From the IMG/VR virus record IMGVR_UViG_3300028393_000107, positions 1 to 45,370 of that record: 45,370 nt of DNA, one strand, 5' to 3'. The notes below the pieces were generated by a model. The model ran no database searches, had not been told where the DNA came from, and saw only the letters and a list, made by a program, of their open reading frames with translations. This DNA comes from a virus. A program made the position numbers and the translations under genes. This document shows, in pieces, positions 5,194 through 20,848 of the stretch; position 1 is the stretch's first letter; every line of letters begins with the position of its first letter.

Positions 5194-5194
5194 A

Positions 5195-5653: not shown

Positions 5654-5659
5654 CTGTTT

Positions 5660-6728: not shown

Positions 6729-6796
6729 AGTGTTTCTCCTATATTATTTACTACTAATCAAATACTTCCAATAATTAATTGAGGTACTGCTATTGA

Positions 6797-6845
6797 TTTT
6801 AAGAAAACCCGCCAAGGTTGCGCTTCTTCGATAGGCGTGGCGGGT
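6797..6845 (-). terminator. rho-independent terminator after the co-chaperonin gene
   Basis: On the minus strand an 8-bp perfect stem ACCCGCCA/TGGCGGGT (6807-6814 and 6838-6845) is followed by TTTTCTT. It lies 18 bases after the co-chaperonin stop, so it ends that transcript; the wall-hydrolase gene starts 70 bases beyond. Confidence 0.8.
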
Positions 6846-6862
6846 GTTGTTACTATTATTTA

Positions 6863-7129
6863 TTAATCTTCTAACACAGCGCTAATATCATCTTGTGATA
6901 ATATGTAAACTGGGTTGTTTTCAATCATTGTTACACTAACCTTGTTCCAATTAATGTATACAGTTTGGCCAATTTCTACTACATCAACTAATGGACCAAT
7001 ACCAATAACTTTTGCCTTATCAACTTCGCCAGTTCTAGCTCCCTCAAGAACAATACCAGACTCAGTCTTTAATTCAACTTTAACACGAATGACCGCAACG
7101 CGATCTTTTATTGGAACTAATTTTGCCAT
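6863..7129 (-). CDS. GroES-like co-chaperonin
   Basis: Eighty-eight residues with the GroES layout: LVPIKDRVAVIRV at the N-terminus, a mobile loop with SGIVL (the IVL tripeptide that contacts GroEL), then KAKVIGIGP and a C-terminal beta strand. It probably caps host GroEL for folding the major capsid protein, as T4 gp31 does, but it looks closer to bacterial GroES. It is a single-gene transcription unit between early promoter 5 and a terminator. Confidence 0.82.
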   Translation of the reverse strand: MAKLVPIKDRVAVIRVKVELKTESGIVLEGARTGEVDKAKVIGIGPLVDVVEIGQTVYINWNKVSVTMIENNPVYILSQDDISAVLED

Positions 7130-7156
7130 ACATTCACCTTTTTTATATTATAGTAC

Positions 7157-7185
7157 ATTATAACACATTTACGATTTAATGTAAA
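7157..7185 (-). promoter_or_regulatory. early-type promoter 5 (TTTACA variant)
   Basis: Minus-strand TTTACA (7180-7185), 17-bp spacer, TATAAT (7157-7162), in the context CTAGTTTACATTAAATCG. Drives the co-chaperonin. Confidence 0.78.
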
Positions 7186-7620
7186 CTAGTTTTTCCAATT
7201 ATAAATTTTCTCTTGGGCTTCTAATGGTGTAGTTGCTCCAACACAAATATCTCTATGCAAAACATTTTCTAATAAATCTTTTTTGCGTGCATCATATAAA
7301 ACACCAACTGGAAAATTAGGAGCTAACTGAGCTTTAGTACAATATGCCTGTAATTGTAGATTACTAATATCATTTGATCCACCAAGAGTTAATGATATTT
7401 TATGATCTACTTCATAACCTAATGTGCATAAAGTACGATCACCATAAGTAACTCCAGCATTTTTATAAACTAATTTCTTTGTTGCTTCTGATACATTACG
7501 AATAGTACTTGTTTTAGTAGTGCAAATGTCTTGTACATTTGTAGTCCTAACTGCAGTTGTTGGTACTGCTGCATGCACAATTGATGTTAATAATAATAAT
7601 GTTAATAAAGTGTATTTCAT
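7186..7620 (-). CDS. secreted HNH-type endonuclease
   Basis: A 144-residue protein with a clear Sec signal peptide (MKYTLLTLLLLTSIVHA, cleavage near 17/18) and an HNH core: YEVDHKISLTLGGSN (Asp72-His73) and SNLQLQ (Asn87), with four mature cysteines likely forming disulfides. Most HNH phage proteins are cytoplasmic; export suggests degradation of DNA in the periplasm, for nucleotide recovery or superinfection exclusion. This role is inferred. It ends at the -35 box of promoter 5. Confidence 0.75.
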   Translation of the reverse strand: MKYTLLTLLLLTSIVHAAVPTTAVRTTNVQDICTTKTSTIRNVSEATKKLVYKNAGVTYGDRTLCTLGYEVDHKISLTLGGSNDISNLQLQAYCTKAQLAPNFPVGVLYDARKKDLLENVLHRDICVGATTPLEAQEKIYNWKN

Positions 7621-7633
7621 GTATTTCCTTATG

Positions 7634-8281
7634 TTAATAACCTTTTAATTTTTTAAAGTCTTCTCTTACTTGCATAAACTCTGGTAACCAAGGTTTAACT
7701 GGTTCAGAGAATATTAAAGCATCTTCATTATCAACACCCATTATGATTACTAATTGTTCTGGTGCCAATCCTGTTTGCTCCCAAAACATATAAGCATAAG
7801 CCGCGGTTTGAATAAAATAACCAGGGATATCCTTTTTCTGTTTTATTCTGCCGGATGTTTTAAAGTCAATGACTGATAAAACTCCATTGTATTCAGCAAT
7901 GCAATCAACTGTGCCTGCTACCTTTAATTTATGCGAGAATAATGGTGACTCTAGGGCATGAATGTTGTCTATACTATCTAGATGAGGAACTAATGTGTTA
8001 AACATTTCTTGATCAAATGGATTAGGTTCAGATTCACCAGTCTTTAAATAGTCCTCACACAAAGAATGGATTTGAGTACCACGCTTAGAGGCTCTAGAGG
8101 AAACTCTATTTGCTTCCTCTTCACCCACTCTTTTACGCCAAGCCATAATACTATCTTTACTTAATATCCCTGTAACCGTAGTGACAGAAGGATACTTAGC
8201 ATCGCCGGTATCATAATATCTTACACCATCAATTTCAACTCTGCTTAATTTCTTAAGCTCATGATCAATAAATGTTTTCAC
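7634..8281 (-). CDS. PD-(D/E)XK (RecB-like) nuclease
   Basis: A 215-residue protein with the RecB-type nuclease motifs in order: GTQIHSLCEDYL, LKVAGTVDCIAEYNG, LSVIDFKTSG (Asp/Lys metal centre) and FIQTAAYAYMFWE. Family members are Mg-dependent exonucleases in recombination or host DNA breakdown. It overlaps the GH19 gene by four bases. The specific substrate is unknown. Confidence 0.8.
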   Translation of the reverse strand: MKTFIDHELKKLSRVEIDGVRYYDTGDAKYPSVTTVTGILSKDSIMAWRKRVGEEEANRVSSRASKRGTQIHSLCEDYLKTGESEPNPFDQEMFNTLVPHLDSIDNIHALESPLFSHKLKVAGTVDCIAEYNGVLSVIDFKTSGRIKQKKDIPGYFIQTAAYAYMFWEQTGLAPEQLVIIMGVDNEDALIFSEPVKPWLPEFMQVREDFKKLKGY

Positions 8282-8892
8282 GTATTCAATATTCCTAATG
8301 CCTTATTATAAAGTTTTGTTCGTTCTGCTAACCCGTTTACCCCACCATTAATTCTTTGTGTCATACCTTTAATGTCATTATTGTCTGCAATGGTATTCAA
8401 ATCATTCTTATTCCAAAACCAGATTGCTGAAAGTAAAGCAACCCGTTTATTTGTTGATACCATATCAGGACTTGTCATAACATCTATACCCATATCGGTA
8501 GAAAATGAAGTATAGTTATTCTTTCCAGTTATTTGGATTGGACCTCGCCCGCGATATTTCCATCCATCACCGCTAGCTTCATCTCCATTCCCCATACGGT
8601 TACAGTATACGTGATTGGCAATCTTTTCTGGTTTTCGTTCATATTGGAGAGGGTCTGTTGTTTTGAAATATTTTCCAAAAACAGTTTTGAGTCCTGCTGC
8701 CCCATAATTTAGATTCTCCGATAGTACAGTAAAGCCATTAGATTCATGGCCGCATTGAGCTAAAAACCCAGCAACACGATGTATGGTATTAATATTGTAC
8801 TGTGGTAAAATAGAGTTTAAGGCATCAGTCCAAGCCAATGCCTCTTTATTATTTGGAAACAGTAATGAAAATTGTTCTGAAGTTATATTCAT
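8278..8892 (-). CDS. GH19 chitinase-like endolysin
   Basis: A 204-residue protein with the GH19 signature: catalytic-type Glu50 in QCGHESNGF and Glu59 in SENLNY, then YRGRGPIQITGKNNY and a C-terminal RINGG. In phages such domains are endolysins cutting the glycan backbone. There is no signal peptide, so it needs a holin; a holin candidate and spanins lie at 32-33.3 kb. It overlaps phoH by four bases and the nuclease by four bases. Confidence 0.85.
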   Translation of the reverse strand: MNITSEQFSLLFPNNKEALAWTDALNSILPQYNINTIHRVAGFLAQCGHESNGFTVLSENLNYGAAGLKTVFGKYFKTTDPLQYERKPEKIANHVYCNRMGNGDEASGDGWKYRGRGPIQITGKNNYTSFSTDMGIDVMTSPDMVSTNKRVALLSAIWFWNKNDLNTIADNNDIKGMTQRINGGVNGLAERTKLYNKALGILNT

Positions 8893-9689
8893 TTGGATAT
8901 CTTAGGCGGTTTGGTATAATCATTTTCTTCTAATAAGTCTTCGTATCTAATTTTAGCAAGGATGTAATCTTTAACTAAACTTGAACGTACAATATCATCT
9001 GCGGTAAATTCAATTCTTGTGAAAGCTGCCATGTGTTGAGCAATATCAAAAAACTTAAGAATACCTGATTGATCGCCTTTCTTACGTAAATCTGATTGGC
9101 GATAATCACCACACCAAATAATCTTAGAACGATAACCTACACGAGTCATAACAGTATCGATCTCTTCATAATTCATGTTTTGCATTTCGTCAACAATAAT
9201 GATTGCATCATCAAATGACATACCACGAATAAATGATGTAGAAATAAACTCAATATGACCCTGTTCTTCTAAACGACTCCAAGCATCCTTACGACCAAAT
9301 AGTGTTTCACAGATTTGGATGTATGGTTGTTTGTAGATATCCATCTTCTCATCAACACTACCAGGAAGATGACCAATTTCTCTAGATTGAACTGCTGAAC
9401 GAACTACTATGATTTTATTAAAAGGATTACTTTTGTCAAGTACTTCCTCTATTGCTTTATATAATGCACAAAACGTTTTACCTGTACCTGCCACCCCATG
9501 CAATGCTACAAAATAATCACCAACTTTATATGCATCAAAGAATTTCTTTTGATTTTCAGTAAGAGGTTGGAAAGTTTTCATATCATCTAAACGTAATGTA
9601 AGATGATTACCTACTCTTTGTTTTTGTTTAGCTTCTGCTTGAGCTTCTTCTTCCACTACAAGCAGTTGTGCTCTAGTCCTTCTAGCCAT
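8889..9689 (-). CDS. phoH: PhoH-like P-loop ATPase
   Basis: A 266-residue protein with Walker A GVAGTGKT (65-72), Walker B DDAIIIVDEMQN and sensor-like IIWCGDYRQSD. PhoH proteins are common in marine and freshwater phages; their role is unsettled (RNA-related ATPase/helicase, sometimes phosphate-regulated). It has a roughly 45-residue N-terminal extension before the TENQ motif. It is packed with the FmdB-like gene upstream and the endolysin downstream. Confidence 0.88.
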   Translation of the reverse strand: MARRTRAQLLVVEEEAQAEAKQKQRVGNHLTLRLDDMKTFQPLTENQKKFFDAYKVGDYFVALHGVAGTGKTFCALYKAIEEVLDKSNPFNKIIVVRSAVQSREIGHLPGSVDEKMDIYKQPYIQICETLFGRKDAWSRLEEQGHIEFISTSFIRGMSFDDAIIIVDEMQNMNYEEIDTVMTRVGYRSKIIWCGDYRQSDLRKKGDQSGILKFFDIAQHMAAFTRIEFTADDIVRSSLVKDYILAKIRYEDLLEENDYTKPPKISK

Positions 9690-9938
9690 TTATAAGTCCC
9701 TTGAAGTTTTATTTAACTGGCTACCTGCAGTCTTTTCATGAATACGTTGTAAGACCTCTTTAAATCCTTGGTCTGGTCTACGTACACCCATACGAACTGG
9801 GTCGATGAATGCAGCGCCTCCTGATATTACAGTTTCCATATTAGGATTCTCTTTCAAGAACTCTTCTCTGGAAGATAAACTCATAAACTTTTCTACTACT
9901 TCACCTGTTTCTTTATCTTTGAATTCGTATAATGGCAT
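9690..9938 (-). CDS. FmdB-like small protein without zinc cysteines
   Basis: Eighty-two residues starting MPLYEFKDKETGEVVEKFMSLSS, the first half of an FmdB-type fold but lacking its CxxC pairs. The C-terminus (VRMGVRRPDQGFKEVLQRIHE) matches a protein often found next to phoH in T4-like aquatic phages. Function unknown. It touches phoH directly. A second, cysteine-bearing FmdB-like gene lies at 25872-26063. Confidence 0.68.
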   Translation of the reverse strand: MPLYEFKDKETGEVVEKFMSLSSREEFLKENPNMETVISGGAAFIDPVRMGVRRPDQGFKEVLQRIHEKTAGSQLNKTSRDL

Positions 9939-9945
9939 AATAATC

Positions 9946-10518
9946 CTAGCTAATATTTGTATTTATCCATTTTGGGGCTGACCGGAGTTTCCAAGAGAAC
10001 ATTCTTTGCTTTTCACCATTGTAGTAATTATGATAAGATTGAATAGAATTACCTGGTACTTTGTACTGATCAGGCATGGCTGGCGTTGGTTCAGTAAACC
10101 AATTATTTTTAAGATTTGTAGGTATAGTAGCAAGTGCATCAACTAAACCAATTTGTTGACATTTGTGGACTTTTGTATACCTATAGGTATATTCGGAGCA
10201 CAGTTCTGTTAATAGGGTATGTAACCACGTATAGTTTGGAATGCTCTGGCGACACCAGACAGCACTAGGATGATTGATATGTGTTGCTGAATATAGAACA
10301 GAATCACGATTGTCAGATAATATCCAGCGTTTTGCTTTGCGACCAGATTGGCTTAAGCCAATTGTTTCAGTACCATCAAGAACACGGTGAGCGGTAGAAA
10401 GTAACTGAGCAGTTTCCAATATCATTTTAACGCAGTGTTTGTCAACGTGCATTTCTGCACAGATTTTTGGATCATTATTTAAGTAGAATATATTCAATCT
10501 TGGTGCTCCAAAATCCAT
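9946..10518 (-). CDS. conserved T4-like phage protein (NIFYLNxDPK.CAE.HVDKHCVKMILE family)
   Basis: A 190-residue protein. The conserved block NIFYLNNDPKICAEMHVDKH, then MILETAQLLSTAHR, HINHPSAVWCRQS, CSEYTYRYTKVHKC and YHNYYNGEKQRMFSWKLR form a family I recall from many aquatic phages and some bacteria, with invariant His and Lys suggestive of an enzyme. The reaction is unknown to me. The start overlaps the coiled-coil gene upstream by 25 bases. Confidence 0.7.
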   Translation of the reverse strand: MDFGAPRLNIFYLNNDPKICAEMHVDKHCVKMILETAQLLSTAHRVLDGTETIGLSQSGRKAKRWILSDNRDSVLYSATHINHPSAVWCRQSIPNYTWLHTLLTELCSEYTYRYTKVHKCQQIGLVDALATIPTNLKNNWFTEPTPAMPDQYKVPGNSIQSYHNYYNGEKQRMFSWKLRSAPKWINTNIS

Positions 10519-10640
10519 TGAAGACGAACAATCTCTTTTTTAAGTAGATCATTCTCTTCTTTAAGTTTAATGATTGCTTTATTGACTTCTTGCATTTGCG
10601 CAATCATTTTATCAATTTCATCGAGTTCCATAATATCCAT
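10494..10640 (-). CDS. 48-residue coiled-coil protein
   Basis: ATG at 10640 (MDIMELDEIDKMIAQMQEVN). A heptad-type helix nearly throughout (KAIIKLKEENDLLKKEI). First gene after early promoter 6; its 3' end overlaps the next gene. Function unknown. Confidence 0.6.
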   Translation of the reverse strand: MDIMELDEIDKMIAQMQEVNKAIIKLKEENDLLKKEIVRLQWILEHQD

Positions 10641-10661
10641 TCATATATCAATTTATAGTAC

Positions 10662-10690
10662 ATTATATACTAAATATTAATTAATGTAAA
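10662..10690 (-). promoter_or_regulatory. early-type promoter 6 (TTTACA variant)
   Basis: Minus-strand TTTACA (10685-10690), 17-bp spacer, TATAAT (10662-10667), context CAGTTTACATTAATTAAT. Drives the coiled-coil gene and the run toward phoH. Confidence 0.78.
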
Positions 10691-10695
10691 CTGTT

Positions 10696-10929
10696 TTATG
10701 CGTAAGTTGCTGAATCGTGCCCAGTTTGATGAACTACTTGATCAGTTTCTTCTTCAACTACTTTAACAACTGGATGTACTGCCCGAATTGGATCAAATTT
10801 TTGTGTTTCTGCAAATGATAATGCAGTTTCTAAATCTTCAAATGCATGTTCAATTATTTCTAATACGCCATTGAAGTTCCATTTATGAATCTTAACTCTA
10901 TGCGGTTTTTTATGGTGGTGATGATTCAT
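10696..10929 (-). CDS. histidine-rich small hypothetical protein
   Basis: Seventy-seven residues with a natural His cluster (MNHHHHKKPHRVKIHKW) that may bind metal. The rest is a small alpha/beta fold with EHAFEDLETALSFAE. It directly follows the glycosyltransferase gene (one base between) and precedes promoter 6. Family not recognised. Confidence 0.62.
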   Translation of the reverse strand: MNHHHHKKPHRVKIHKWNFNGVLEIIEHAFEDLETALSFAETQKFDPIRAVHPVVKVVEEETDQVVHQTGHDSATYA

Positions 10930-10930
10930 G

Positions 10931-11986
10931 TTAATCCTTAAATAAGTTGTACCAAATTTTTGCAGTATTATCTGTGTATTTAGTTAGGTTAGTTTGATTA
11001 CGCCATACATTAAGTTGTGGCATATGATATGTTCTTTCTAGTATTTCACAAATATAAGTACTATCAGTAGGTACTGCATTAAAGAATTTACTAGCCCATG
11101 GTATCTCACTGGTTCCTATTAGTGGAACCCCTTGACTAATTAAATCTGATCCTACAATATTAAATGTCTCAGAGAAATTACATTGCATACCAATATCCAT
11201 TTTAGAACAGAGCTCAAGAAACTCTTCTCTTACTCTCCATTCGTGTATAATTAATTGATGACCACCAATATGGAGATGCTGGAATAATCCGCGTAAGTTA
11301 TTCATTACAGGATCGCCTTTCATCTCAATTCGTCCTCCATTGATATGGAAACGCAATTGCTTATTAATCTTATTAGCAAATTTTAAAGCGCCAAAAGCTT
11401 GCACCAGGTGATTTTTTAGTGGTCGAACCGCACCAAAACACGCAATATCTACCCAATATTTATCATAATTAAACTCTTTTTTCTTATATTCTTGAGGATA
11501 GAAGTTTGGCATATAGATAATACGCTCATTGATGGTTTCGTTTGACCAGCGCATTTTAGTTTTAAGATACTCAGCAACTTCATTCATCATTCTTGGAGCA
11601 TTGACTCCAATACTAATATTTGGATTTGCAACATAGTCACCCAACCAATCCATGGCCATGCCTTCGCCGGCCATGAATGGCATTTCTGAATGAAGTCTAA
11701 TGATCCATTTTACATTTGGATGGAGTTTAGTTAGGACTGCAAATTTACTAGGAACAACCCATAATGCTTCAATAATAACATGAGTTGGTTTATGTTGATT
11801 TACCAATCGATCAATACAATTATTATCAATAGCAACTTCAATATTTGCTTCTATACCTAAATCATTTAACATAGATACCATAAAAGAAGCTGAATTAAAT
11901 AATCCAGTGCTTAAGCCTTTTGGACTATGAGCTACTGGATTGTAATCTTCTCGGCGTTTAAGAATAAAAAGTATTCGTTTTCTCAT
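10931..11986 (-). CDS. GT4-like glycosyltransferase
   Basis: A 351-residue protein with a GT-B layout: an N-terminal Rossmann-like half (RILFILKRRED, HVIIEALWVVP), and a C-terminal half with DIACFGAVRPLKNH, HINGG, HEWRVREEFLELCSKMDIG and an ETFNIVGSDLISQGVPLIG donor-binding region. Similar proteins occur in T4-like phages and may glycosylate virion proteins or DNA. It follows the porin-like gene with 39 bases between, containing an AATAAATA octamer. No export signal. Confidence 0.72.
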   Translation of the reverse strand: MRKRILFILKRREDYNPVAHSPKGLSTGLFNSASFMVSMLNDLGIEANIEVAIDNNCIDRLVNQHKPTHVIIEALWVVPSKFAVLTKLHPNVKWIIRLHSEMPFMAGEGMAMDWLGDYVANPNISIGVNAPRMMNEVAEYLKTKMRWSNETINERIIYMPNFYPQEYKKKEFNYDKYWVDIACFGAVRPLKNHLVQAFGALKFANKINKQLRFHINGGRIEMKGDPVMNNLRGLFQHLHIGGHQLIIHEWRVREEFLELCSKMDIGMQCNFSETFNIVGSDLISQGVPLIGTSEIPWASKFFNAVPTDSTYICEILERTYHMPQLNVWRNQTNLTKYTDNTAKIWYNLFKD

Positions 11987-12016
11987 GCTAGTCTCAATTA
12001 ATATTTTATATTTTAC

Positions 12017-12024
12017 TATTTATT
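12017..12024 (-). promoter_or_regulatory. late-promoter-like octamer AATAAATA
   Basis: Minus-strand AATAAATA lies 30 bases upstream of the glycosyltransferase ATG, in the gap after the porin-like gene. T4-like phages tolerate variation at the first base of TATAAATA. A chance match is quite possible in A+T-rich DNA. Confidence 0.3.
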
Positions 12025-12025
12025 A

Positions 12026-13630
12026 TCACATAGTTGTTCTGTAACCAAAGAATAACAATTCTCTTGTGTCATTTTCAGTTTTAGTAATATTTAATTCACC
12101 TTCAACGGATGTATCTTTAGTTAATTGATATTGGATCCTAGCTACAGGATTAATTGATATAGTTGTTTGCCCATTTGAGGTTTCATCATAGTATCTAATG
12201 GTCTCTGTAAAATGCCAATTATCAAGTGATAATGAATGTGTAGCAGACAGGTTTCTAGCTGTGTACTGAGGATCATCCACCATGCTAGCCATTAGTATTA
12301 CCATATCAGTAGACCATAGGATCTTGTTACCAACAGCTCTTATTGAATATGTATAGTTATTTTTTATCCCAGGCTGGGCTGCAATGATTGCATTACCATC
12401 AGTGGCGCCAATAAACATTGCTCTAAGATCAAGACTTAAGTTCCAATCTTTAGTTATATCCTTTGAGACATTGAATGACGTACTATCTGATTCTGATACA
12501 ACAGATTTTACAAGATTATAAATCTCGCCAGAACTTAATTGCCTGCGCAGATCTGATACAGATACAGCACCAACCATAGACGATAAAGCAGTTTCAGCAT
12601 ACATGATACCAGTTTTTCGATGATCATACAATATACTAAAACTATAATCTTTCCAGATGAAATTGGTTTGGATCATTGCAAGATTAATATCCTTATAGAT
12701 TGTATCATAATCTATTGCACCTAGAAATGATGTATCTCCATTAAAATATCTTAACTCTCCACCAATTGCTCTTCTTTCAGTTAATCCATCTGCCACCTGT
12801 TCTAATGTGTAGATATTACCAGACCAATTAATGTTTGGATTGTTTAGTTCTATACCAATCCCATAAAAGTATCGATCCGTCTTAATGTTATTATGAGAAC
12901 CATAATCTGGAACTCCTAAGATACCAGTCAATCGATAGTTTTCTGATACTCGGTATCTTCCAGTAAAGCCATCAAATCTACCTAGTGCTCCTTGATTTGT
13001 GCCATTTTGTCTACCTAATCTCCAATTGGAGTCAATTGACTTATCTGTCTGTTCTAAATAAAATGCATTAAGATTATTACGATCAGTAGAATTTTTAGTC
13101 ATATTATGAATTTGAGTATTTCTAAACACGTACTTGGTATCATACTCATTAAACAAATATCGTTCTGTTCCTTCAACACTTGTAATCAATGATGATACAT
13201 TATCTCCACCATAGTAATATTGACTTACACTACCATTGAATGATGCTTGATTGATCTCTCTGGTAAGTTTAAGTTTTGGTTTTATTTCAGTTTCTTTGGG
13301 TTTTAGATTTAATAATCTTTTTCGTACTCGATCTGCATTAACCCCCGTTGGATATAGTTTTAAATAGATCTCATACTCAGCTTTGGCTTTTTCTGTTTCA
13401 CTAGCACTTTCACGAGCCATGCCAATTAACTCTTGAGCCTCAGTAGTATATTCATTTTGAGGCATATTGAGTAAAGTGTTTAGATAGAGTATTGCTGTCT
13501 TGGGATCGTCTTGTGTGATAGCCGTTCTGGCTGCACTGAATAAATCAATGGCAGCCATCTCGGGCATAGTTTGAGTTGCAGCAAAGGATGTTATGCTAAA
13601 CCATAATATAAAAAAGCTCAATAGTCGCAT
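12026..13630 (-). CDS. outer-membrane beta-barrel protein with N-terminal TPR-like helices (porin-like partner of the cytochrome)
   Basis: A 534-residue protein. Residues 1-18 (MRLLSFFILWFSITSFAA) are a Sec signal peptide. Residues about 25-110 are TPR-like helices (AIDLFSAARTAI, AILYLNTLLNMP, KAEYEIYLKLYP). From about 130 to the end it is a run of alternating polar/hydrophobic strands rich in Tyr, Asn and Gly, as in outer-membrane barrels; the C-terminal strand is ELLFFGYRTTM. It starts three bases after the cytochrome stop. Porin-cytochrome pairs move electrons across outer membranes, which is one hypothesis. TPR-barrel proteins also export polysaccharide (BcsC, PgaA type), an alternative. 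Highly unusual for a phage. Confidence 0.72.
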   Translation of the reverse strand: MRLLSFFILWFSITSFAATQTMPEMAAIDLFSAARTAITQDDPKTAILYLNTLLNMPQNEYTTEAQELIGMARESASETEKAKAEYEIYLKLYPTGVNADRVRKRLLNLKPKETEIKPKLKLTREINQASFNGSVSQYYYGGDNVSSLITSVEGTERYLFNEYDTKYVFRNTQIHNMTKNSTDRNNLNAFYLEQTDKSIDSNWRLGRQNGTNQGALGRFDGFTGRYRVSENYRLTGILGVPDYGSHNNIKTDRYFYGIGIELNNPNINWSGNIYTLEQVADGLTERRAIGGELRYFNGDTSFLGAIDYDTIYKDINLAMIQTNFIWKDYSFSILYDHRKTGIMYAETALSSMVGAVSVSDLRRQLSSGEIYNLVKSVVSESDSTSFNVSKDITKDWNLSLDLRAMFIGATDGNAIIAAQPGIKNNYTYSIRAVGNKILWSTDMVILMASMVDDPQYTARNLSATHSLSLDNWHFTETIRYYDETSNGQTTISINPVARIQYQLTKDTSVEGELNITKTENDTRELLFFGYRTTM

Positions 13631-13633
13631 AGT

Positions 13634-14467
13634 TTACATACTACTTAACATCACCTTTAATTTACGTTTTAATTCTAAAGCACCAGTACGGCACGGCCAG
13701 CCAGTAATTGAATGACAGTTACTACAGTTATTTGGAGTTATTGGATGAACTGCAGGTTTTATACTAGCACCAAGGTAATTACCTACGTGACAGTTTTCGC
13801 ATGTTTCAGTTCCAGTGTGAGTATAAACCCCACCAGCAAAAGAAGAAAATCCAGCTTTATGACAAGTATCGCATGATGCTGCACCAGTTGGGATATGATT
13901 AGAGGGCAATCCCATCGCATTAGTTCCATTATGACAAGTAGCACAGGTACCAACAACAACCCCTATATGCGAGAAACGAGCACCATTCCAATTTGAAGTA
14001 CTATGGCATGCATCACAACTTAATGTAGTTGCTACGTGGTCTTTAGGTTTACCTACCGCATTTTGAGATGTAAATGCTCCGTTGTGGCAGGTCGCACAAC
14101 CTCCAGGTGGGCTTGTAGTTGCATTATGAATCATTGTTGCTCCACTGAATACTGTAGTGGTATGACAAGTAGAACATTCTGCAGAACTTGGAATATGCTG
14201 AACAGTTTTACCAATTGCCGGCGGTCGAGTACCAGAATGGCAAGTAGCGCATAAAGTAGGAGTACCTTTCCATACACCGCTTAGATGGCAACTAGAACAA
14301 CTGCACAATGAAGTAGCATGATATCCAGTTAAACCATATGTACTATGCAGAGGTCGATAAGCTTCACAGATTGAATCTGCTTTAACATCACATGATACCA
14401 AGAATGATAAACACAACAATAATATTGCACCAAATGTAATAACTTTGTGAAACCAATGATTATCCAT
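13634..14467 (-). CDS. nonaheme c-type cytochrome (multiheme, exported)
   Basis: A 277-residue protein with nine CXXCH heme c motifs starting at residues 57, 73, 98, 124, 151, 175, 199, 223 and 248. The mature part has exactly nine further histidines (41, 50, 91, 114, 144, 167, 191, 217, 241), most lying 6-10 residues before a motif, as expected for bis-His hemes. The N-terminus is a signal peptide; LVSC (23-26) could be a lipobox, otherwise cleavage is near A30. The repeat (CATCHNG..A.G.P..HIP) is that of bacterial multiheme cytochromes. Heme attachment would need the host's maturation system. RBS is AGAGG; it is coupled to the porin-like gene. Confidence 0.9.
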   Translation of the reverse strand: MDNHWFHKVITFGAILLLCLSFLVSCDVKADSICEAYRPLHSTYGLTGYHATSLCSCSSCHLSGVWKGTPTLCATCHSGTRPPAIGKTVQHIPSSAECSTCHTTTVFSGATMIHNATTSPPGGCATCHNGAFTSQNAVGKPKDHVATTLSCDACHSTSNWNGARFSHIGVVVGTCATCHNGTNAMGLPSNHIPTGAASCDTCHKAGFSSFAGGVYTHTGTETCENCHVGNYLGASIKPAVHPITPNNCSNCHSITGWPCRTGALELKRKLKVMLSSM

Positions 14468-14494
14468 ACAAACCTCTTTTAGTTGATTGCATAT

Positions 14495-14502
14495 TATTTA
14501 TT
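14495..14502 (-). promoter_or_regulatory. late-promoter-like octamer AATAAATA before the cytochrome
   Basis: Minus-strand AATAAATA lies 28 bases upstream of the cytochrome ATG, straddling the stop of the gene before it. It would give late expression of the cytochrome and porin-like pair. One mismatch from TATAAATA; chance is possible. Confidence 0.35.
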
Positions 14503-15073
14503 AATCCCATAAGTTCCGGAAGTATTTACCAAACAAAATTAATCCATTATCAATGCGTTCACTATGTTTAGTCCAAGCATCTTTATCCCATTTGCAATCT
14601 TTGCCTTCACATGAATAGAATTGTTTTTCCCAGTCATCTTTATTGAGCTCTTCAAAAGACCATATCATTTGATCCATTACCCAATCCCAACGTTTGAAAT
14701 GGTTATCATCAGTATCCCATGAATTTTCTTTTGGACTTGCTGCAGTGCTTCTGAGGTCCTCTGGGACATCTTCATCTTCTACAAATGGTGCGCCATGTTT
14801 AGATTCTTTAAGTTGCTGCAGCATAGGTAGAATGATAGGTGTAAGAGTAGAGTCCATGGACCACGTATCCCATTTATCTATCTTAACATAATCAATTTTA
14901 GGGTCTACTGCATCTAGGAATTTCATCCAAGCAGTACATACAGGCTCAAGTACTTTATTGACTTGTTTTACCCATGGTTCGTCATAATCAATCTCACGCC
15001 AAAAACAGATCTTTTCACAGATCGTATATGGCGAAACCCAATGATATCGATATTTGTTTTTATAGACTATCAT
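14501..15073 (-). CDS. conserved T4-like phage hypothetical protein
   Basis: A 190-residue protein from the ATG at 15073 (MIVYKNKYRYHWVSPYTI); a longer frame starts inside the previous gene. The motif HWVSPYTICEKICFWREIDYD followed by an acidic, Trp-rich C-terminus (RWDWVMDQMIWSFEEL..DDW) is a family I recall from T4-like aquatic phages. Function unknown. It lies just upstream of the cytochrome gene. Confidence 0.65.
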   Translation of the reverse strand: MIVYKNKYRYHWVSPYTICEKICFWREIDYDEPWVKQVNKVLEPVCTAWMKFLDAVDPKIDYVKIDKWDTWSMDSTLTPIILPMLQQLKESKHGAPFVEDEDVPEDLRSTAASPKENSWDTDDNHFKRWDWVMDQMIWSFEELNKDDWEKQFYSCEGKDCKWDKDAWTKHSERIDNGLILFGKYFRNLWD

Positions 15074-15392
15074 AAGCTTCTTTTGGAGGATTATAACTAA
15101 GATCAACTTTCATTGTTGCACCAGTAGGCAATTGATTAACCCAATTTTCTAATATTTGATGCATATATGAACTAGTACCATAAGCTTTCTTATAACAAAT
15201 ATATTTACTACCACTATAGCCAGTAAATTCCAAACGATCACCTAAATCTTCTTCTTTAACATTACCTGAATTTAACTTCCATGAGTCTCCAACTTCAAAC
15301 CCACCATACCACCCTGCAAATACTTTCTTAAGTATTTCAGTACCATTATTAATTTCTAAGACAACCCACCTGTCTGGTGTATATTGTTCCAT
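15060..15392 (-). CDS. conserved phage hypothetical protein
   Basis: A 110-residue protein (MEQYTPDRWVVLEINNG...). A beta-rich fold with WYGGFEVGDSWKLNSG and YICYKKAYGTSSY. It overlaps the following gene by 14 bases and begins after a GGGAGT ribosome-binding site just past the tRNA terminator. I recall similar proteins in other phages but know no function. Confidence 0.62.
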   Translation of the reverse strand: MEQYTPDRWVVLEINNGTEILKKVFAGWYGGFEVGDSWKLNSGNVKEEDLGDRLEFTGYSGSKYICYKKAYGTSSYMHQILENWVNQLPTGATMKVDLSYNPPKEAYDSL

Positions 15393-15404
15393 AATGACTC
15401 CCTA

Positions 15405-15450
15405 TAATAAAAGAACTCCCAAGCCATCCTATTAAGCAATGGATGGGAGC
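15405..15450 (-). terminator. terminator after the tRNA cluster
   Basis: On the minus strand CTCCC ... GGGAG enclose an inner ATCC/GGAT pairing, followed by TTCTTTTATTATA. It lies ten bases after the tRNA-Tyr 3' end and before the 110-residue gene. Confidence 0.6.
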
Positions 15451-15459
15451 CGTGTTAAT

Positions 15460-15545
15460 TGGTGGAGGAGATAGGAATCGAACCTATTCACCCAGTGAGA
15501 ACGGATTTACAGTCCGCCGCGACTCTCCTACTTCGCCGCTCCTCC
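15460..15545 (-). tRNA. tRNA-Tyr (GUA) with long variable arm and encoded CCA
   Basis: Acceptor GGAGGAG/CTCCTCC, discriminator A, encoded CCA (15460-15462), anticodon stem around CTGTAAA with anticodon GTA (15508-15510), a long class II variable arm and T-arm loop TTCGATT. Last of three adjacent tRNAs, in transcription order Met, Trp, Tyr. Confidence 0.93.
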
Positions 15546-15551
15546 AAAAAC

Positions 15552-15625
15552 TGGCTACGATGCACGGACTTGAACCGCGACTAAAGGTTTTGGAGACCAT
15601 TGTGCTGCCATTACACTACACCGTA
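15552..15625 (-). tRNA. tRNA-Trp (CCA) with encoded CCA end
   Basis: Acceptor TACGGTG/CATCGTA, discriminator G (the Trp identity base), encoded CCA (15552-15554), D-stem GTGT/GCAC and T-loop TTCAAGT. The anticodon loop CTCCAAA gives anticodon CCA (15591-15593). The anticodon stem ATGGT/ACCTT has one T-T mismatch, a mild oddity. Confidence 0.9.
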
Positions 15626-15627
15626 CT

Positions 15628-15702
15628 TGGTTGCGGGAGACGGATTCGAACCGCCGATCTACAGCTTATGAGACTGTCGAGTTGCCACTTCTCCACCCCG
15701 CG
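15628..15702 (-). tRNA. tRNA-Met (CAU) with initiator-like acceptor end
   Basis: Starts CGCGGGG and ends TCCCGCA-A-CCA, so base 1 (C) faces base 72 (A), the unpaired hallmark of bacterial initiator tRNA. G2:C71, C3:G70 and A11:T24, all formylation determinants, are also present. The anticodon stem ACAGT/GCTGT lacks the three G:C pairs of initiators. Anticodon CAT at 15668-15670. It may act as initiator, elongator or a hybrid. Confidence 0.92.
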
Positions 15703-15707
15703 ATAAC

Positions 15708-15857
15708 TTATTTACTTTCGTTCAATAAAACTTTTTCAGTTGAATTTTGTTTAGCTACTTCTTGTAGCTTAGCAATATATTCTTCATTAGTTAGTTTATG
15801 CATACCTTCGCAGAAACCAGTTAAACTACGACCACAAGTACAAACTTTTGCTTCCAT
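15708..15857 (-). CDS. CDGSH-like small iron-sulfur-type protein
   Basis: A 49-residue protein (MEAKVCTCGRSLTGFCEGMH...) carrying C-x-C-x2-S-x4-C-E-G-x-H, one residue shorter than the CDGSH [2Fe-2S] ligand motif. A related phage family reads CGRSPTG.C.G.H. All ligand-type residues (three Cys, one His) are present, so metal or Fe-S binding is plausible but unproven. It ends six bases before the tRNA-Met gene and begins after an AGGAGA ribosome-binding site. Confidence 0.68.
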   Translation of the reverse strand: MEAKVCTCGRSLTGFCEGMHKLTNEEYIAKLQEVAKQNSTEKVLLNESK

Positions 15858-15865
15858 ACTATCTC

Positions 15866-16051
15866 CTATAGACCTAAGTCTTCTAGACTTTCTATAACAG
15901 AATCAATTTCTTTTTCAACAACTGATTCTCTACTTACATTTTTACGATTTGCAAAAATGGCATCGCTTTCTTTTGGACCTTTATATTCCAAAGTTTGAAC
16001 TTCACCACCATTGTCAAAGAATTCTTTTAATGCTTGATCAAATGTGCTCAC
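15866..16051 (-). CDS. small acidic hypothetical protein with GTG start
   Basis: Sixty-one residues (STFDQALKEFFDNGGEVQTLEYKG after the initiator). The start codon is GTG, adjacent to the upstream TAG stop. The EFFDNGGEVQTLEYKGPKES motif resembles small beta-hairpin phage proteins; ends in an acidic helix. Function unknown. Confidence 0.58.
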   Translation of the reverse strand: MSTFDQALKEFFDNGGEVQTLEYKGPKESDAIFANRKNVSRESVVEKEIDSVIESLEDLGL

Positions 16052-16266
16052 TATTTATACCCCTTAAATACGGTTTCTTTTAATGGAATTGAAACAAATT
16101 TACGATATCTTTTGTCTAATTTTTGTTTAGTTGCATAATAGATAGGTTCGCCTTCTCCCCATTTTTGATAGGCAATTGGGCGGGATCCTTCCATTAAGTA
16201 TACATGGTTAGGTTGACGATAATCAACCTTCCATTCAGTAATTTCTTTAATGACTTCGAGTGTCAT
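16051..16266 (-). CDS. conserved phage hypothetical protein
   Basis: Seventy-one residues from the ATG at 16266 (MTLEVIKEITEWKVDYRQPNH); the longer frame overlaps the upstream gene and is not used. NHVYLMEGSRPIAYQKWGEGEPIYY and KQKLDKRYRKF recall a small family of T4-like phages. One base separates it from the upstream stop. Function unknown. Confidence 0.62.
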   Translation of the reverse strand: MTLEVIKEITEWKVDYRQPNHVYLMEGSRPIAYQKWGEGEPIYYATKQKLDKRYRKFVSIPLKETVFKGYK

Positions 16267-16267
16267 A

Positions 16268-16618
16268 TTATTTAGAGAAGTACATTTTAGCTTGTGCTTC
16301 TGAACATTTGAATTTCTTACCAGCATTTTCAAAGATGTACGGGTATGCTTTACCACGTGTGTTATAACCAACTAAAGTTTTACCACACTTAGAAGTCTTA
16401 ACAAGACCTTTAGTAACCATCATGAACTCTAACACTGAGTCCTCTTTAGTTTTTGCACCTTTAACTTTAGCTTCCATTTTAGTAGTGAAAGATCCTTCAT
16501 TGAAACTGATGTTACCAATCTTAATTTCAATACCGTTTTCTTTTGCATAAGAAGACAAGATAGCTGAGATGTCTTCACGGATGTTTTTAAGGTTTGCTTT
16601 GTCGAATTTTGTAATCAT
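16268..16618 (-). CDS. hypothetical early protein, 116 residues
   Basis: Start taken at MITKFDKANLKNIREDI; the preceding MRRKYI is only the leader ribosome-binding region GAGAAGGAAATATATT. Lys-rich, with IKIGNISFNEGSFTTKMEAKV and a C-terminal RGKAYPYIFENAGKKFKCS. First gene after early promoter 7. I recall the family from phages, without a function. Confidence 0.62.
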   Translation of the reverse strand: MITKFDKANLKNIREDISAILSSYAKENGIEIKIGNISFNEGSFTTKMEAKVKGAKTKEDSVLEFMMVTKGLVKTSKCGKTLVGYNTRGKAYPYIFENAGKKFKCSEAQAKMYFSK

Positions 16619-16654
16619 AATATATTTCCTTCTCAATTAATTTAATATAAAGCT

Positions 16655-16683
16655 ATTATACACTAAATAAGAATTAAAGTACA
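16655..16683 (-). promoter_or_regulatory. early-type promoter 7 (TGTACT variant)
   Basis: Minus-strand TGTACT (16678-16683), 17-bp spacer, TATAAT (16655-16660), context GTGTGTACTTTAATTC. Confidence 0.78.
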
Positions 16684-16710
16684 CACTTATTTAGTGTTTT
16701 TGCAAAATAA

Positions 16711-17637
16711 TTATGCAGCCATTGCTAATAATTCATCAGCGATCTCAATCTTACGTTGAGAGTTAGCACCAAACCATGAGTTGAACAAACGATTGTTTTG
16801 ATTACGGCCAGCTTCCCAATCAGAGTACTGAGTGAAAGCATTTAGTAAACCGAATGCAGTACCTTTTGCAGACTCTAGATCAGCACCTAATGCATCACCA
16901 TTAAATAACTCTAAGATACGAGCTGGTTGACGACCAAGATTGATCTCGTTATTGTCAAAGATCTTAGCAAGGAAGTCATTAGCTTGTTTAGAAGACATCT
17001 TCATTTGAGCTAAAGCTTTCATTGCAGCAGTATGTGAAGCAAGAGATTCGTATACACCTTCAAGCTTAAGTTTAGCTTGACCAGCATCGAATACTGAGTT
17101 GTGACGAATAACTACGTCAGCTTTACCTTGAGTAGCCATTGACAATGTGTTATTACATACTACACGAACTGTAGTTAAACGAGCTTGTGTAGCTAATGAA
17201 CCATCACATGAAGATGATAGAAGGATGTAAGGCTTGCTGATATCGCCAGCAATGTTGATCTCGCCGTCAATTTTAGCCATTGCCCAATAACGTTTACCGT
17301 CATGTAGAACACCAGCAGTTTCCAACTTAGCAGTACCTTCAACGTAATCTGCAAAGAATTCCAACACTTCACGTGGTTGAACTAATTTGTAGTTGTTTGA
17401 TACTACTGAAAGACCTACTTCTGTATCCTTACGGTATACGATGTTCTTGTTATTAAGAACAATATTACCATTTTGAACTGGAACTGTATCCAATTCGAAA
17501 TCCAAACCAGAAGCTTGAGCCCAAGTTTCCATGTCTGAGTTTTCGTCTAGCTTAGCGCCTAGACCGTGCCAAGGAGTTTCACCTACATAAGCCATTGCGT
17601 CTGCTCCAGCTGCTGTTTTTGCAATTTCATGTGCCAT
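16711..17637 (-). CDS. DUF932 phage/plasmid-like protein
   Basis: A protein of 308 residues starting MAHEIAKTAAGADAMAYVGETPWHGLG, the standard N-terminus of the DUF932/TIGR03299 family. An ATG two codons upstream is closer to the GGAG than usual. Members occur on phages and plasmids; a role in recombination or anti-defence has been suggested but is not settled. It is a single gene under early promoter 8 with strong spacing, so probably highly expressed early. Confidence 0.82.
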   Translation of the reverse strand: MAHEIAKTAAGADAMAYVGETPWHGLGAKLDENSDMETWAQASGLDFELDTVPVQNGNIVLNNKNIVYRKDTEVGLSVVSNNYKLVQPREVLEFFADYVEGTAKLETAGVLHDGKRYWAMAKIDGEINIAGDISKPYILLSSSCDGSLATQARLTTVRVVCNNTLSMATQGKADVVIRHNSVFDAGQAKLKLEGVYESLASHTAAMKALAQMKMSSKQANDFLAKIFDNNEINLGRQPARILELFNGDALGADLESAKGTAFGLLNAFTQYSDWEAGRNQNNRLFNSWFGANSQRKIEIADELLAMAA

Positions 17638-17679
17638 AATCATAATCTCCGTTTAGTTATTTAATCAATTTAAGATACT

Positions 17680-17708
17680 ATTATAAGCTAAACACGAATT
17701 AATGTACA
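17680..17708 (-). promoter_or_regulatory. early-type promoter 8
   Basis: TGTACA (17703-17708), 17-bp spacer, TATAAT (17680-17685) on the minus strand. Unlike the others its -35 box is part of a perfect inverted repeat (17704-17736). Confidence 0.8.
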
Positions 17709-17736
17709 CTACTTTTTGCAATTATTTGTAGTGTAC
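17704..17736. repeat. 9-bp perfect inverted repeat overlapping the DUF932 promoter
   Basis: GTACACTAC (17704-17712) and GTAGTGTAC (17728-17736) with a 15-base loop. The near arm overlaps the -35 box of promoter 8. It may be an operator, or a weak terminator of the small ORF before it. Confidence 0.6.
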
Positions 17737-17823
17737 CCAAAAATTAGCTATGATATGAATGCATGTCACCATTTCCATACTTCTCATTACCCACCAAATC
17801 TTATCACGCTCTGGGTGTTTCAT
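17722..17823 (-). CDS. possible 33-residue protein
   Basis: ATG at 17823 (MKHPERDKIWWVMRSMEMVT), inside the end of the 56-residue ORF, in another frame. Trp/Met-rich. Its end lies in the inverted repeat. Coupling makes it plausible, but the length alone gives weak support. Confidence 0.35.
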   Translation of the reverse strand: MKHPERDKIWWVMRSMEMVTCIHIIANFWVHYK

Positions 17824-17974
17824 CAGAAGGCCAATCTAAAATTACACGAATAAAACCTAATTCAATAATCACTGCATTTGCTTCTAAATAAAAATGTACA
17901 CCAATACCAAAACCTACAATTAGTTCTACATTAATTAATAACTCTGACTTACCAAATGGACCGAAACTTAACAT
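17804..17974 (-). CDS. 56-residue hypothetical protein
   Basis: ATG at 17974 (MLSFGPFGKSELLINVELIVG) after AAGGGA. Mostly hydrophobic beta-type segments, ending DETPRA. It fills much of the 394-base interval between the DUF932 gene and the DUF6433-like gene. Function unknown. Confidence 0.5.
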   Translation of the reverse strand: MLSFGPFGKSELLINVELIVGFGIGVHFYLEANAVIIELGFIRVILDWPSDETPRA

Positions 17975-18037
17975 ATAATCCCTTCACTTTACGGAAGAAT
18001 TTTTTCATAGGAGTAACAGGCTCTTCCTTCACTTTTA

Positions 18038-18496
18038 CTACTCTGCTGCTCCTATAGCTTTTTTTGATTTTTCTACTTTCTTTGGCTTTTCAGGAGGAAC
18101 ATTGGTTACAAACCCACAATCATAAACTAATTGATGAGTGATATTAGGATACTGTGCGGTTAAAGTTTGATCCTTAATTGAGATTAATAGTTCAGCCTCA
18201 GATGGATGAACGTTCTCAAGCAATTGAATAAACTTATCTTCACGTGTAATTGGTTTTAAATCTGCTCGGCAAAATACGTAGAATGTACGTAACTCTTGAC
18301 GTAAGATTGCATAACTCATACCAAGAGGGGCTGCATCCTTCTTATAAGGAGGTTCTCCTTCAGGTAATAGGAACCTAAATGCTGGATCAAACGCATGTTT
18401 AAACAAAGTAGTAAATGAGCCATCGCCTCTATACTGCTGCAGCATTTCCGGATTATTGTTAATTTCTGTTAAAATTTCAGGTAAATATTTTTGCAT
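18038..18496 (-). CDS. DUF6433-like conserved T4-like phage protein
   Basis: A 152-residue protein. ALFKHAFD-type N-terminus, then FRFLLPEGEPPYKKDAAPLGMS, YAILRQELRTFYVF and REDKFIQLLENVHPSEAELLISIKD match a family I recall as DUF6433 in cyanophages. Function unknown; it adjoins RNase H as in those phages, suggesting a replication-linked role. The C-terminus is a Lys/Pro-rich tail. Confidence 0.72.
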   Translation of the reverse strand: MQKYLPEILTEINNNPEMLQQYRGDGSFTTLFKHAFDPAFRFLLPEGEPPYKKDAAPLGMSYAILRQELRTFYVFCRADLKPITREDKFIQLLENVHPSEAELLISIKDQTLTAQYPNITHQLVYDCGFVTNVPPEKPKKVEKSKKAIGAAE

Positions 18497-18497
18497 A

Positions 18498-19403
18498 TTA
18501 AAATTCCTCTATTTCATCTAATAAAAGACTACATTTATTTTTAATAAGATAATTCATAATTGACATCTTATCACCATTAACCTTTTTGGTTATATAGGTA
18601 TCTATAATAGATTTAGATACATCTTCTGGAATAAATTCAAAGTCAACTAGTTTTTGGTTACGATCCCAATTGCGGCGCTGATCATCATTTTCACAAGCAT
18701 CTCTACCAATTTCAATAAATCTTGCAAGCTTCTTAGCAGTCACAGGAGTTTGGCGATCTTCAGAATTAATAAACACATCATCTTTACTAAACATATTCGG
18801 AATGCCATCACCGCCATCGCCTCGTACAATATGTTCAATTAAGTATTCACCTAACTTGCCACCTTCTACAAACTTCTTTTGCATAGGTGACCACTGACGA
18901 ACATTAGAATACTTTTGTAATTGCTTAAAGTCTTTATCAGATGAAACGATAAGTACGTCCTGGGGCTCTTCTATGAGTCCTTGAGATACAAATCCATTCG
19001 ATTGAGTCCACTTAGTCAGTGTGGCAATAACATCATCAGCTTCACAGCGTTCTACGTTAATGACCTTATATGGAAAGTATTGATCTAGGTCTTCACGCAT
19101 GGCAGCAAGAGTTTCAAATACAAATTTCCAATCGAGGTCAGACTTATCTCTAGCCTTAGCACGACCAGCTTTATAGTATTGAAAGACTTCCTTGCGCCAG
19201 TAGTTACGACCATCACAAGCAATAACTAATTCACCATACTGTTTACCATACTTCTTTTTATAGAATTTAATGGATGTTAGTACAGCATGTCGAATGATAT
19301 TAACTGAGTCAGCAATACGTTCTTGTTTGAGGTTACGAGTCAAGTCCGCCTGAAAGGCAAAGATGTTTGATAACACTACTTGATTGTAGTCCAATATAAT
19401 CAT
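18498..19403 (-). CDS. rnh: T4-type RNase H (5'-3' exonuclease, FEN-1 family)
   Basis: A 301-residue protein with the acidic metal-site motifs of the family: MIILDYNQ, ACDGRNYWRKEV, ERCEADDVIA, VSSDKDFKQL and RGDGGDGIPNM. T4 RNase H (305 residues) removes RNA primers and adjacent DNA from lagging strands together with gp32. It overlaps the upstream gene by one base, and the DsbA-like gene lies nearby as in T4. Confidence 0.87.
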   Translation of the reverse strand: MIILDYNQVVLSNIFAFQADLTRNLKQERIADSVNIIRHAVLTSIKFYKKKYGKQYGELVIACDGRNYWRKEVFQYYKAGRAKARDKSDLDWKFVFETLAAMREDLDQYFPYKVINVERCEADDVIATLTKWTQSNGFVSQGLIEEPQDVLIVSSDKDFKQLQKYSNVRQWSPMQKKFVEGGKLGEYLIEHIVRGDGGDGIPNMFSKDDVFINSEDRQTPVTAKKLARFIEIGRDACENDDQRRNWDRNQKLVDFEFIPEDVSKSIIDTYITKKVNGDKMSIMNYLIKNKCSLLLDEIEEF

Positions 19404-20530
19404 TATAAAACCCTCAATAAGATAGTGTCTGAGTTGATTCGACCATTCATCTTAGTAGTTACTGTTGTAAGCTTACTTAAGATCTTCTGTAGTTGCATCT
19501 TACCACCTTTCATTACTTCATCAATGGTAATTGCAGGTTTACGTAATCCATTCTGAGCACTGACTTCAGGATCCCATCCTAACAGACTGGTACCCTTCAC
19601 ACTAAACCCACTAGAACCTGTTGCATAGTAGACTCCAAGCTTTTTGTTCTTAGTGTTATAGATCCATAATTGGCTAGCACCTACAATCTTAGTAGGATGG
19701 ATACTAGTAAGACCTAATTCAGAGAATTCCTGTAAGAACTGCATCTTAGCTACTTGATGGCCAGCTGGTTTTTCTTTACGTTTACGTGGTGCTCGTGTTG
19801 CTTTAACTACAAGAGCATGGCCTTCAGCGTCAGAAACGATTGCTTCTACAAGTGATTGGAATTTTTTGAGTTGTGCATTAGTTAGGAAGTTATAGCCTTC
19901 AACTAATTGTTCATCATCATCAATCATTGTCTCATTGATCTCACTCAACAGACGCTTGTAGAAGTCACCGATCTTTCGAGTAACTGCAGTAGATAAACCA
20001 TTCTTAGCAATGTATGCCTTAAGAGAAAAGTCTGATGATTTGTTCTTAGCAAACTTATCAATCTCGTAATCAATTTCAGCCATGTGCTTACGTGCTACTT
20101 CAGTTACTCTGTCCATTACTGATGGTACAGAAGGAGCATCTTTCTTTTCTTCGATCTTCTCTGCAAGTTTCTCAGTATACTTTGCTTTGATATTGGCAAG
20201 ACGTGCACCAATAATTGCTTTATGTTCTTCAGATAGATATTCGCCACGAGTATTCAATCGCATCAGGATTGACATTTGATTTGTCTCATGATCTGATGCA
20301 AGATTGAAGTACTTGATGTAATCATCTAACTTATTGAGCTTGAGGTACTCAATACCATACTTAGTTAAACGTGATGACTCCTCATTGGCATTATACCAAT
20401 TAAGAGCTAGCATTAATTCAACTTTGTAATTCTTTTCTGATACAAGTGGTTCACCTGCACCACCACGCATCATTGATGTAGCCTTTTCTAACTTATTACG
20501 CTTACGTTCTAATTGGGCTTCAGTTGCCAT
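19403..20530 (-). CDS. conserved T4-like phage hypothetical protein, 375 residues
   Basis: Starts MATEAQLERKRNKLEKATSM. A helical N-terminal two thirds with ELMLALNWYNANEES and YLKLNKLDDYIKYFN, a basic linker (TRAPRKRKEKPAGHQ) and a beta-rich C-terminal domain with SQLWIYNTKNKKLGVYY. I recall homologues beside rnh in T4-like aquatic phages. Function unknown; the basic linker suggests nucleic-acid binding. First gene after early promoter 9 and probably co-transcribed with rnh. Confidence 0.7.
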   Translation of the reverse strand: MATEAQLERKRNKLEKATSMMRGGAGEPLVSEKNYKVELMLALNWYNANEESSRLTKYGIEYLKLNKLDDYIKYFNLASDHETNQMSILMRLNTRGEYLSEEHKAIIGARLANIKAKYTEKLAEKIEEKKDAPSVPSVMDRVTEVARKHMAEIDYEIDKFAKNKSSDFSLKAYIAKNGLSTAVTRKIGDFYKRLLSEINETMIDDDEQLVEGYNFLTNAQLKKFQSLVEAIVSDAEGHALVVKATRAPRKRKEKPAGHQVAKMQFLQEFSELGLTSIHPTKIVGASQLWIYNTKNKKLGVYYATGSSGFSVKGTSLLGWDPEVSAQNGLRKPAITIDEVMKGGKMQLQKILSKLTTVTTKMNGRINSDTILLRVL

Positions 20531-20558
20531 GAGAGTCTCCTTGACTAATTAAGATACT

Positions 20559-20587: not shown

Positions 20588-20590
20588 CTA

Positions 20591-20845: not shown

Positions 20846-20848
20846 GTA

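Follow-up and report, generated by a model that had tools for sequence, protein, structure and literature searches.

A phage-borne nonaheme cytochrome and TPR-barrel porin related to the PCC3 porin-cytochrome system

The stretch of DNA analyzed here, which we refer to as the window, is a 45,370-nucleotide virus record (IMGVR_UViG_3300028393_000107). It carries genes for an endolysin, PhoH, ribonucleotide reductase, a primase, a head maturation protease, and a virion structural protein, and it is phage DNA. The locus of interest consists of two minus-strand genes, a cytochrome gene and, 3 nt downstream (13631-13633), a barrel gene; the features of this locus and of related loci are shown in Table 1. 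An earlier note, made from the letters alone, had described the first gene as combining nine CXXCH motifs with a signal peptide and the second as encoding a signal-peptide-bearing TPR/beta-barrel protein three bases later. Both descriptions were borne out: nine motifs were counted, the open reading frames had the 3-nt spacing, an AlphaFold model of the barrel had 22 strands, and both N-termini read as signal-like. PCC3, which is named in the table, is a putative porin-cytochrome system of Gallionellaceae, Methylophilaceae, and relatives for which a conduit role is predicted.

Table 1. Features of the cytochrome-barrel locus, of the rest of the window, and of related phage contigs
Feature	Position	Strand	Basis or remark
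Nonaheme c-type cytochrome, 277 aa, homologue of PCC3 extracellular multiheme cytochrome	13634..14467	-	9 CXXCH, Pfam, BLAST, dN/dS
Predicted cytochrome signal peptide	14387..14467	-	Read from sequence
Nine CXXCH heme sites	14285-14299, 14237-14251, 14162-14176, 14084-14098, 14003-14017, 13931-13945, 13859-13873, 13787-13801, 13712-13726	-	Span 13712..14299
PCC3-type outer-membrane porin, 534 aa: signal peptide, TPR, 22-strand beta-barrel	12026..13630	-	Identity, tree, AlphaFold
Periplasmic TPR (YfiO-like) domain, porin residues 22-108	13307..13567	-	Profile similarity, AlphaFold
22-strand barrel domain, porin residues 127-533	12032..13252	-	AlphaFold
351-aa gene, co-directional, 39 nt after porin	10931..11986	-	46% homologue downstream of pair in L105/L107
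Four tRNA genes (Tyr, Trp, Met, Arg)	15460-15702, 5119-5193	-	
Calcineurin-like phosphoesterase	23335-24090	-	Also in L010, L111, L112, 51-71% identity
Mini PCC3 inner-membrane protein	L105:12493-12960, L108:8847-9320, L123:11178-11612, L179:2994-3395; also L158, L159, L161, L162		Two WX3HX13H

In 20,000 composition-preserving shuffles of the cytochrome, the mean number of CXXCH motifs was 0.13 and the maximum was 3, compared to 9 in the real protein. Three Pfam families scored above the cut-off (Cytochrome_C7 at 2.4e-12, Cytochrom_c3_2, and Paired_CXXCH_1). The mature protein contained exactly nine His residues outside the motifs (41, 50, 91, 114, 144, 167, 191, 217, and 241), one per heme, as bis-His ligation of nine hemes requires, and all nine hemes are probably ligated in this way. 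Seven of the heme sites were invariant across nine phage cytochromes, as were six of the nine His residues (41, 50, 91, 144, 167, and 191). As read from the sequence, the signal-like N-terminus (MDNHWFHKVITFGAILLLCLSFLVSC) included a lipobox (LVSC, residues 23-26) with Asp at +2, and an SPase I site (VKA/DS) provided an alternative cleavage. In BLAST, the window cytochrome was roughly 33-49% identical to PCC3 extracellular-type cytochromes (E to 8e-62). The mature protein also had three non-heme cysteines, two near the N-terminus (C34 and C55) and one in the C-terminal tail (C259); equivalents of this odd-numbered set recurred in the 7-heme phage cytochromes.

The barrel protein also began with a stretch that read as signal-like (MRLLSFFILWFSITSFA). 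Residues 20-102 showed weak YfiO/BamD TPR similarity, and the AlphaFold model, for which the input was a 26-sequence alignment, had a mean pLDDT of 89, five TPR helices, and 22 strands. The C-terminal residue was Met, whereas Phe is usual at this position. In sequence comparisons, the window barrel shared 50% identity with the bacterial PCC3 barrels L126/L127 across 508 aa, as against 29-32% with other phage barrels. An exact peptide-pattern search of bacterial genomes for the barrel alone gave no match, and the bacterial operons were located instead through alignment of the cytochrome. Sequence searches of the PDB returned just TPR proteins or generic multiheme cytochromes, and Foldseek found no specific relative, its matches being porins and pilus ushers of a generic kind with a best TM of about 0.44.

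In the case of the 351-aa gene that follows the barrel gene, no Pfam, PHROG, or NCBIfam match was found, and its association with the pair is uncertain. The T4-type late promoter (TATAAATA) was not enriched and none was located at the pair, and sigma-70 and terminator scans gave results at chance level. When window positions 5001-25000 were compared to 187 Methylophilaceae-family genomes, the matches listed were mostly tRNA genes plus a few short conserved stretches, and none was host-specific. Elsewhere in the window, positions 9946-10518 had 88% protein identity and a 6-residue length change relative to L009, a contig that was otherwise nearly identical; this difference is local strain variation. 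The calcineurin-like phosphoesterase was common to several cytochrome-carrying phages. In L112, a GT4 glycosyltransferase came next, and the two resemble a candidate lipid-remodelling pair (PlcP/Agt-like).

The cytochrome alignment led to 51 bacterial loci, mostly in Betaproteobacteria (Thiobacillus, Methylotenera, Gallionella, Rubrivivax, and Rhodoferax) and some in Bradyrhizobium. A barrel was present at 24 of the 28 loci that had at least 3 kb of room after the cytochrome. Four proteins were encoded in the typical operon: one of the inner membrane, marked by SGxxG and two WX3HX13H motifs; a cytochrome of 24-27 hemes; another and usually larger cytochrome (about 20 to over 80 CXXCH motifs); and the TPR-barrel. 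These operons match the make-up given for PCC3 in He et al. 2017 (PMC5566968), and PCC3 has been surveyed in Gallionellaceae (PMC10734462). In Sideroxydans lithotrophicus ES-1, both PCC3 clusters were down-regulated with Fe(II) (PMC8788666). Porin-cytochrome genes are abundant in humic lakes, Methylotenera included (PMC6344600), which fits the bacterial relatives found here. In the Methylophilaceae relatives, the operon went on past the barrel into genes that we read as cytochrome c maturation-like.

Relatives in other phages were found in IMG/VR by a CATCHNG motif scan and by alignment-based scans, on contigs of up to 369 kb. The barrel was found in 11 of the 12 phage records tested, and multiheme cytochromes were adjacent in all 13 IMG/VR contigs with a barrel relative. 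The usual order was barrel, pentaheme, heptaheme, and some of the pentahemes consisted of four CXXCH motifs and one CX4CH motif. The phage barrels formed about nine groups below 60% identity, including the truncated L179, and a large terminase was encoded on five contigs (179, 266, 327, 328, and 369 kb). The podovirus-like 49-kb contig L110 had a 9-heme cytochrome (9968-10732) among structural genes and no barrel. No 21-27-heme cytochrome was found in the phage records searched, and no Ccm or AlaS (5-aminolevulinate synthase) genes were found in the phages. Two side observations concern these contigs: the barrel is preceded by a weakly endolysin-like gene in one set of related phage contigs, and in the 166-kb contig G012 a second multiheme open reading frame (51753-52319) contained an in-frame TAA and is perhaps a decaying copy.

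The earlier note had suggested asking whether barrel and cytochrome homologues co-occur, and it would have abandoned its proposal if the barrel homologues were unrelated to cytochromes. In the phage contigs and bacterial loci described above, they were almost always beside multiheme cytochromes. The note's remark that multiheme cytochromes are very rare in phages holds for named phages, where 50,697 records gave no match to the cytochrome, the barrel, or the inner-membrane protein, but in IMG/VR the kit recurs in about nine phage lineages.

From residue ~40 to 257, the window cytochrome aligned either with the beginning of giant bacterial cytochromes or with repeats inside them. The pentaheme of L123 matched the N-terminal region and the exact C-terminus of giant cytochromes of 1,246 and 1,437 aa, the C-terminal match reaching their last residue with 58-60% identity over 57 aa (E 2e-20); it looks as if a repeat region more than a thousand residues long had been excised. 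Similarly, phage inner-membrane homologues of 145-158 aa matched the bacterial ones down to 2.6e-36 and aligned with the two end portions of their bacterial counterpart (290-310 aa), with the middle loop (~110 aa) missing. They retained all of the signature residues (W70, H74, H88, S111, G112, G115, W131, H135, and H149) and matched no Pfam family over the cut-off. Of 13 phage records, 6 had this mini inner-membrane protein, at times with tens of kb between it and the barrel, and a scan found it on eight contigs; L179, a further lineage, encoded it near the barrel and brought the viral total to nine contigs. It is probably the most striking single component, and with this subunit in other phages the system is larger than the earlier note had envisaged.

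We estimated dN/dS by the Nei-Gojobori method. The cytochromes gave 0.13 (window versus L010) and 0.04-0.12 (other phages), the barrels 0.13-0.21, and the inner-membrane protein 0.08, and with values of 0.04-0.21 these look like working genes. In the barrel tree, the main phage clade, which comprised 10 barrels and L089, was fully supported, and the window porin grouped with Methylophilaceae-family porins (support 82/99), which suggests that the window porin came from a second acquisition, separate from that of the main clade. A single phage barrel clade was not rejected (p-AU 0.41). The cytochrome N-termini disagreed with the barrel tree on acquisition history: a C-x2-Y-x3-H start was found in phage cytochromes, the window cytochrome included, and among bacterial PCC3 cytochromes only in L089, which argues for common ancestry of the phage cytochromes. 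L089 is a Methylophilaceae chromosome contig (2.0 Mb) with a 7-heme/barrel/5-heme mini cluster at 5522-8480. Its barrel was nested inside the main phage clade, and the cluster was near transposase-like genes and had no obvious phage genes within 16 kb. This cluster may be a phage remnant or the source.

The results of these comparisons strongly indicated that both window proteins are homologous to PCC3 and not to Mtr/Pio. The earlier note's idea of a porin-cytochrome pair was supported, both by homology and by a linkage that is conserved in phages as well as in bacteria, but a relation to the Mtr/Pio type, which it had named as the known example, was not: the DmsE-family decaheme profile TIGR03508 scored 33.8 bits versus a cut-off of 192, and MtrB did not appear by sequence or among the 50 best Foldseek matches. 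As for the components of PCC3, the window contains the family's outer-membrane porin, as judged by identity, tree, and 22-strand model, and next to it an extracellular-type multiheme cytochrome, which has just 9 hemes and a surface location that is predicted. The separate periplasmic 21-27-heme cytochrome and the SGXXG/WX3HX13H inner-membrane protein were absent from the 45-kb window, which is a genome fragment. The window pair is a reduced, PCC3-derived porin-cytochrome pair and not a full PCC3 system.

We consider it probable that the pair is a miniaturised, phage-borne outer-membrane part of a PCC3-type conduit that would sustain energy supply during infection. The sequences themselves show the homology and the linkage, the heme ligands, the purifying selection, the location in phages, and the miniaturisation; that the two proteins form a complex and transfer electrons is inferred. 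Specifically, the host Ccm system would load heme onto the cytochrome, the TPR-barrel would insert in the outer membrane, and the nonaheme cytochrome is predicted to lie inside the 22-strand barrel or up against it, linking periplasmic donors to the cell surface. Relatives in other phages would add a second, 5-heme cytochrome, and the shortened inner-membrane protein, encoded on at least nine viral contigs, may link the conduit to the quinone pool through two heme b sites. The direction of transfer could be either of two: the phage may maintain or create a way out for electrons (humics, Fe(III)) or a way in (Fe(II)), which would change electron flow in infected cells and benefit the phage through their energy supply. 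Several observations count against a conduit. The window fragment has neither the inner-membrane protein nor the periplasmic cytochrome, PCC3 itself is just predicted, the ES-1 clusters are down with Fe(II), and L110 has a 9-heme cytochrome and no barrel. The lack of Ccm and 5-aminolevulinate synthase genes in the phages and the terminal Met of the window barrel were also counted here.

A different function at the cell surface is unlikely, although it is the best of the alternatives. The phage barrel and cytochrome might replace or mask the host PCC3 porin, a possible phage receptor, and block superinfection, with any electron transfer being incidental. Phage-encoded outer-membrane proteins are known for exclusion, the window barrel is similar enough to the host-type porin (50% identical) that it could compete with it, and L110 has a cytochrome alone. 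However, the heme motifs and distal His residues are under strong purifying selection, and several phages keep a mini inner-membrane protein with all of the predicted heme b ligands, which would be superfluous for exclusion. Slightly less likely still is a redox sink or envelope signal, in which the cytochrome would serve as a periplasmic electron store, in oxidative-stress defence, or as a lysis/energy switch, and the outer membrane would not be crossed. The barrel-less cytochrome of L110 and the weakly endolysin-like gene mentioned above would suit such a role, and the lipobox with Asp at +2, as read from the sequence, could retain the window cytochrome at the inner membrane; against it, the cytochrome is constantly linked to a large barrel, both in bacteria and across about nine phage lineages.

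The earlier note had also mentioned that TPR-barrel proteins export polysaccharides. We regard it as very improbable that the barrel is of the polysaccharide-export type (BcsC/PgaA) and lies beside the cytochrome by chance. It has the TPR-plus-barrel architecture, and the next gene downstream is without an assigned function, but no exporter family profile matched, the model has 22 strands versus 16 in the exporter barrel, BcsC was just rank 28 in Foldseek (TM 0.29), and the close homologues are PCC3 porins adjoining cytochromes.

Least credible of all is a fusion of host DNA to phage DNA through assembly or binning error, for while the closest barrel relatives are bacterial, a second assembly (IMGVR_UViG_3300027708_000406) is co-linear with window positions 8214-23630 (15.4 kb, 99.67%) and unbroken at 12.0 and 14.5 kb, the GC of the pair (barrel 0.345, cytochrome 0.404, window 0.347) is far from that of the nearest bacterial PCC3 operons (0.58-0.60), the cytochrome gene recurs at 88% DNA identity with different neighbours in the phage contig L010 from another metagenome, and many phage homologues are on long contigs, five of them with a terminase. 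Because the second assembly is unbroken and the GC is like that of phage and unlike that of host-type operons, the pair is not a host chimera, and we saw no sign of the chimera that the earlier note had raised against its own proposal. The L010 copy, which runs off the contig end, has one in-frame TGA and may be decaying or misread.

Returning to the PCC3-type conduit, we give even chances to a broader form of it. A widespread freshwater phage group, with some genomes of >300 kb, would install a complete stripped-down conduit that leads from the quinone pool of the inner membrane through the outer membrane and is built from a mini inner-membrane cytochrome b, small multiheme cytochromes, and a porin, and infected cells would respire to or from extracellular substrates on phage hardware; the window porin was perhaps acquired separately from a Methylophilaceae-type PCC3. 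In the open-access literature searched, we found no report of a phage-encoded porin-cytochrome pair. If the reading is correct, these would be the first phages reported with a trans-envelope electron conduit, as far as that literature shows, and viruses would directly control extracellular electron transfer, a key process for the cycling of iron, humics, and carbon in anoxic freshwater. As natural miniatures, the phage versions further suggest a minimum for PCC3: a 22-strand barrel, 9 to 12 hemes, and a 150-aa inner-membrane protein replacing the giant wire. Since their genes are small, PCC3 function becomes testable in a laboratory strain.

Related cases have been described in other mobile elements. 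Bog phages that carry alaS were proposed to support heme-dependent electron transport of the host (PMC11480375); they are likewise freshwater/peat phages, but they bring heme precursor synthesis, whereas the phages described here bring cytochromes and a conduit, and no AlaS. Borgs of Methanoperedens carry multiheme cytochromes that are thought to augment electron export by the host (PMC11208441). They are also mobile elements with multiheme cytochromes, but they are archaeal, of an unrelated element type, and without an outer-membrane porin. MtrAB, PioAB, and MtoAB resemble the window pair in functional type, as each consists of an outer-membrane barrel and a small multiheme cytochrome encoded side by side. 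The MtrB barrel has 26 strands, whereas the window barrel has a TPR domain and 22 predicted strands. Compared to PCC3, the window pair differs in being phage-borne, in having 9 hemes (7+5 in other phages) versus about 10 to over 70, and in the components missing from the 45-kb fragment, namely the 21-27-heme periplasmic cytochrome and the inner-membrane protein; the phage inner-membrane versions differ in the loss of the roughly 110-aa loop. The likeness to PCC3 lies in the homologous barrel, the homologous extracellular-type cytochrome, and the cytochrome-then-barrel order common to both, to which other phages add a homologous inner-membrane protein with identical signature motifs.
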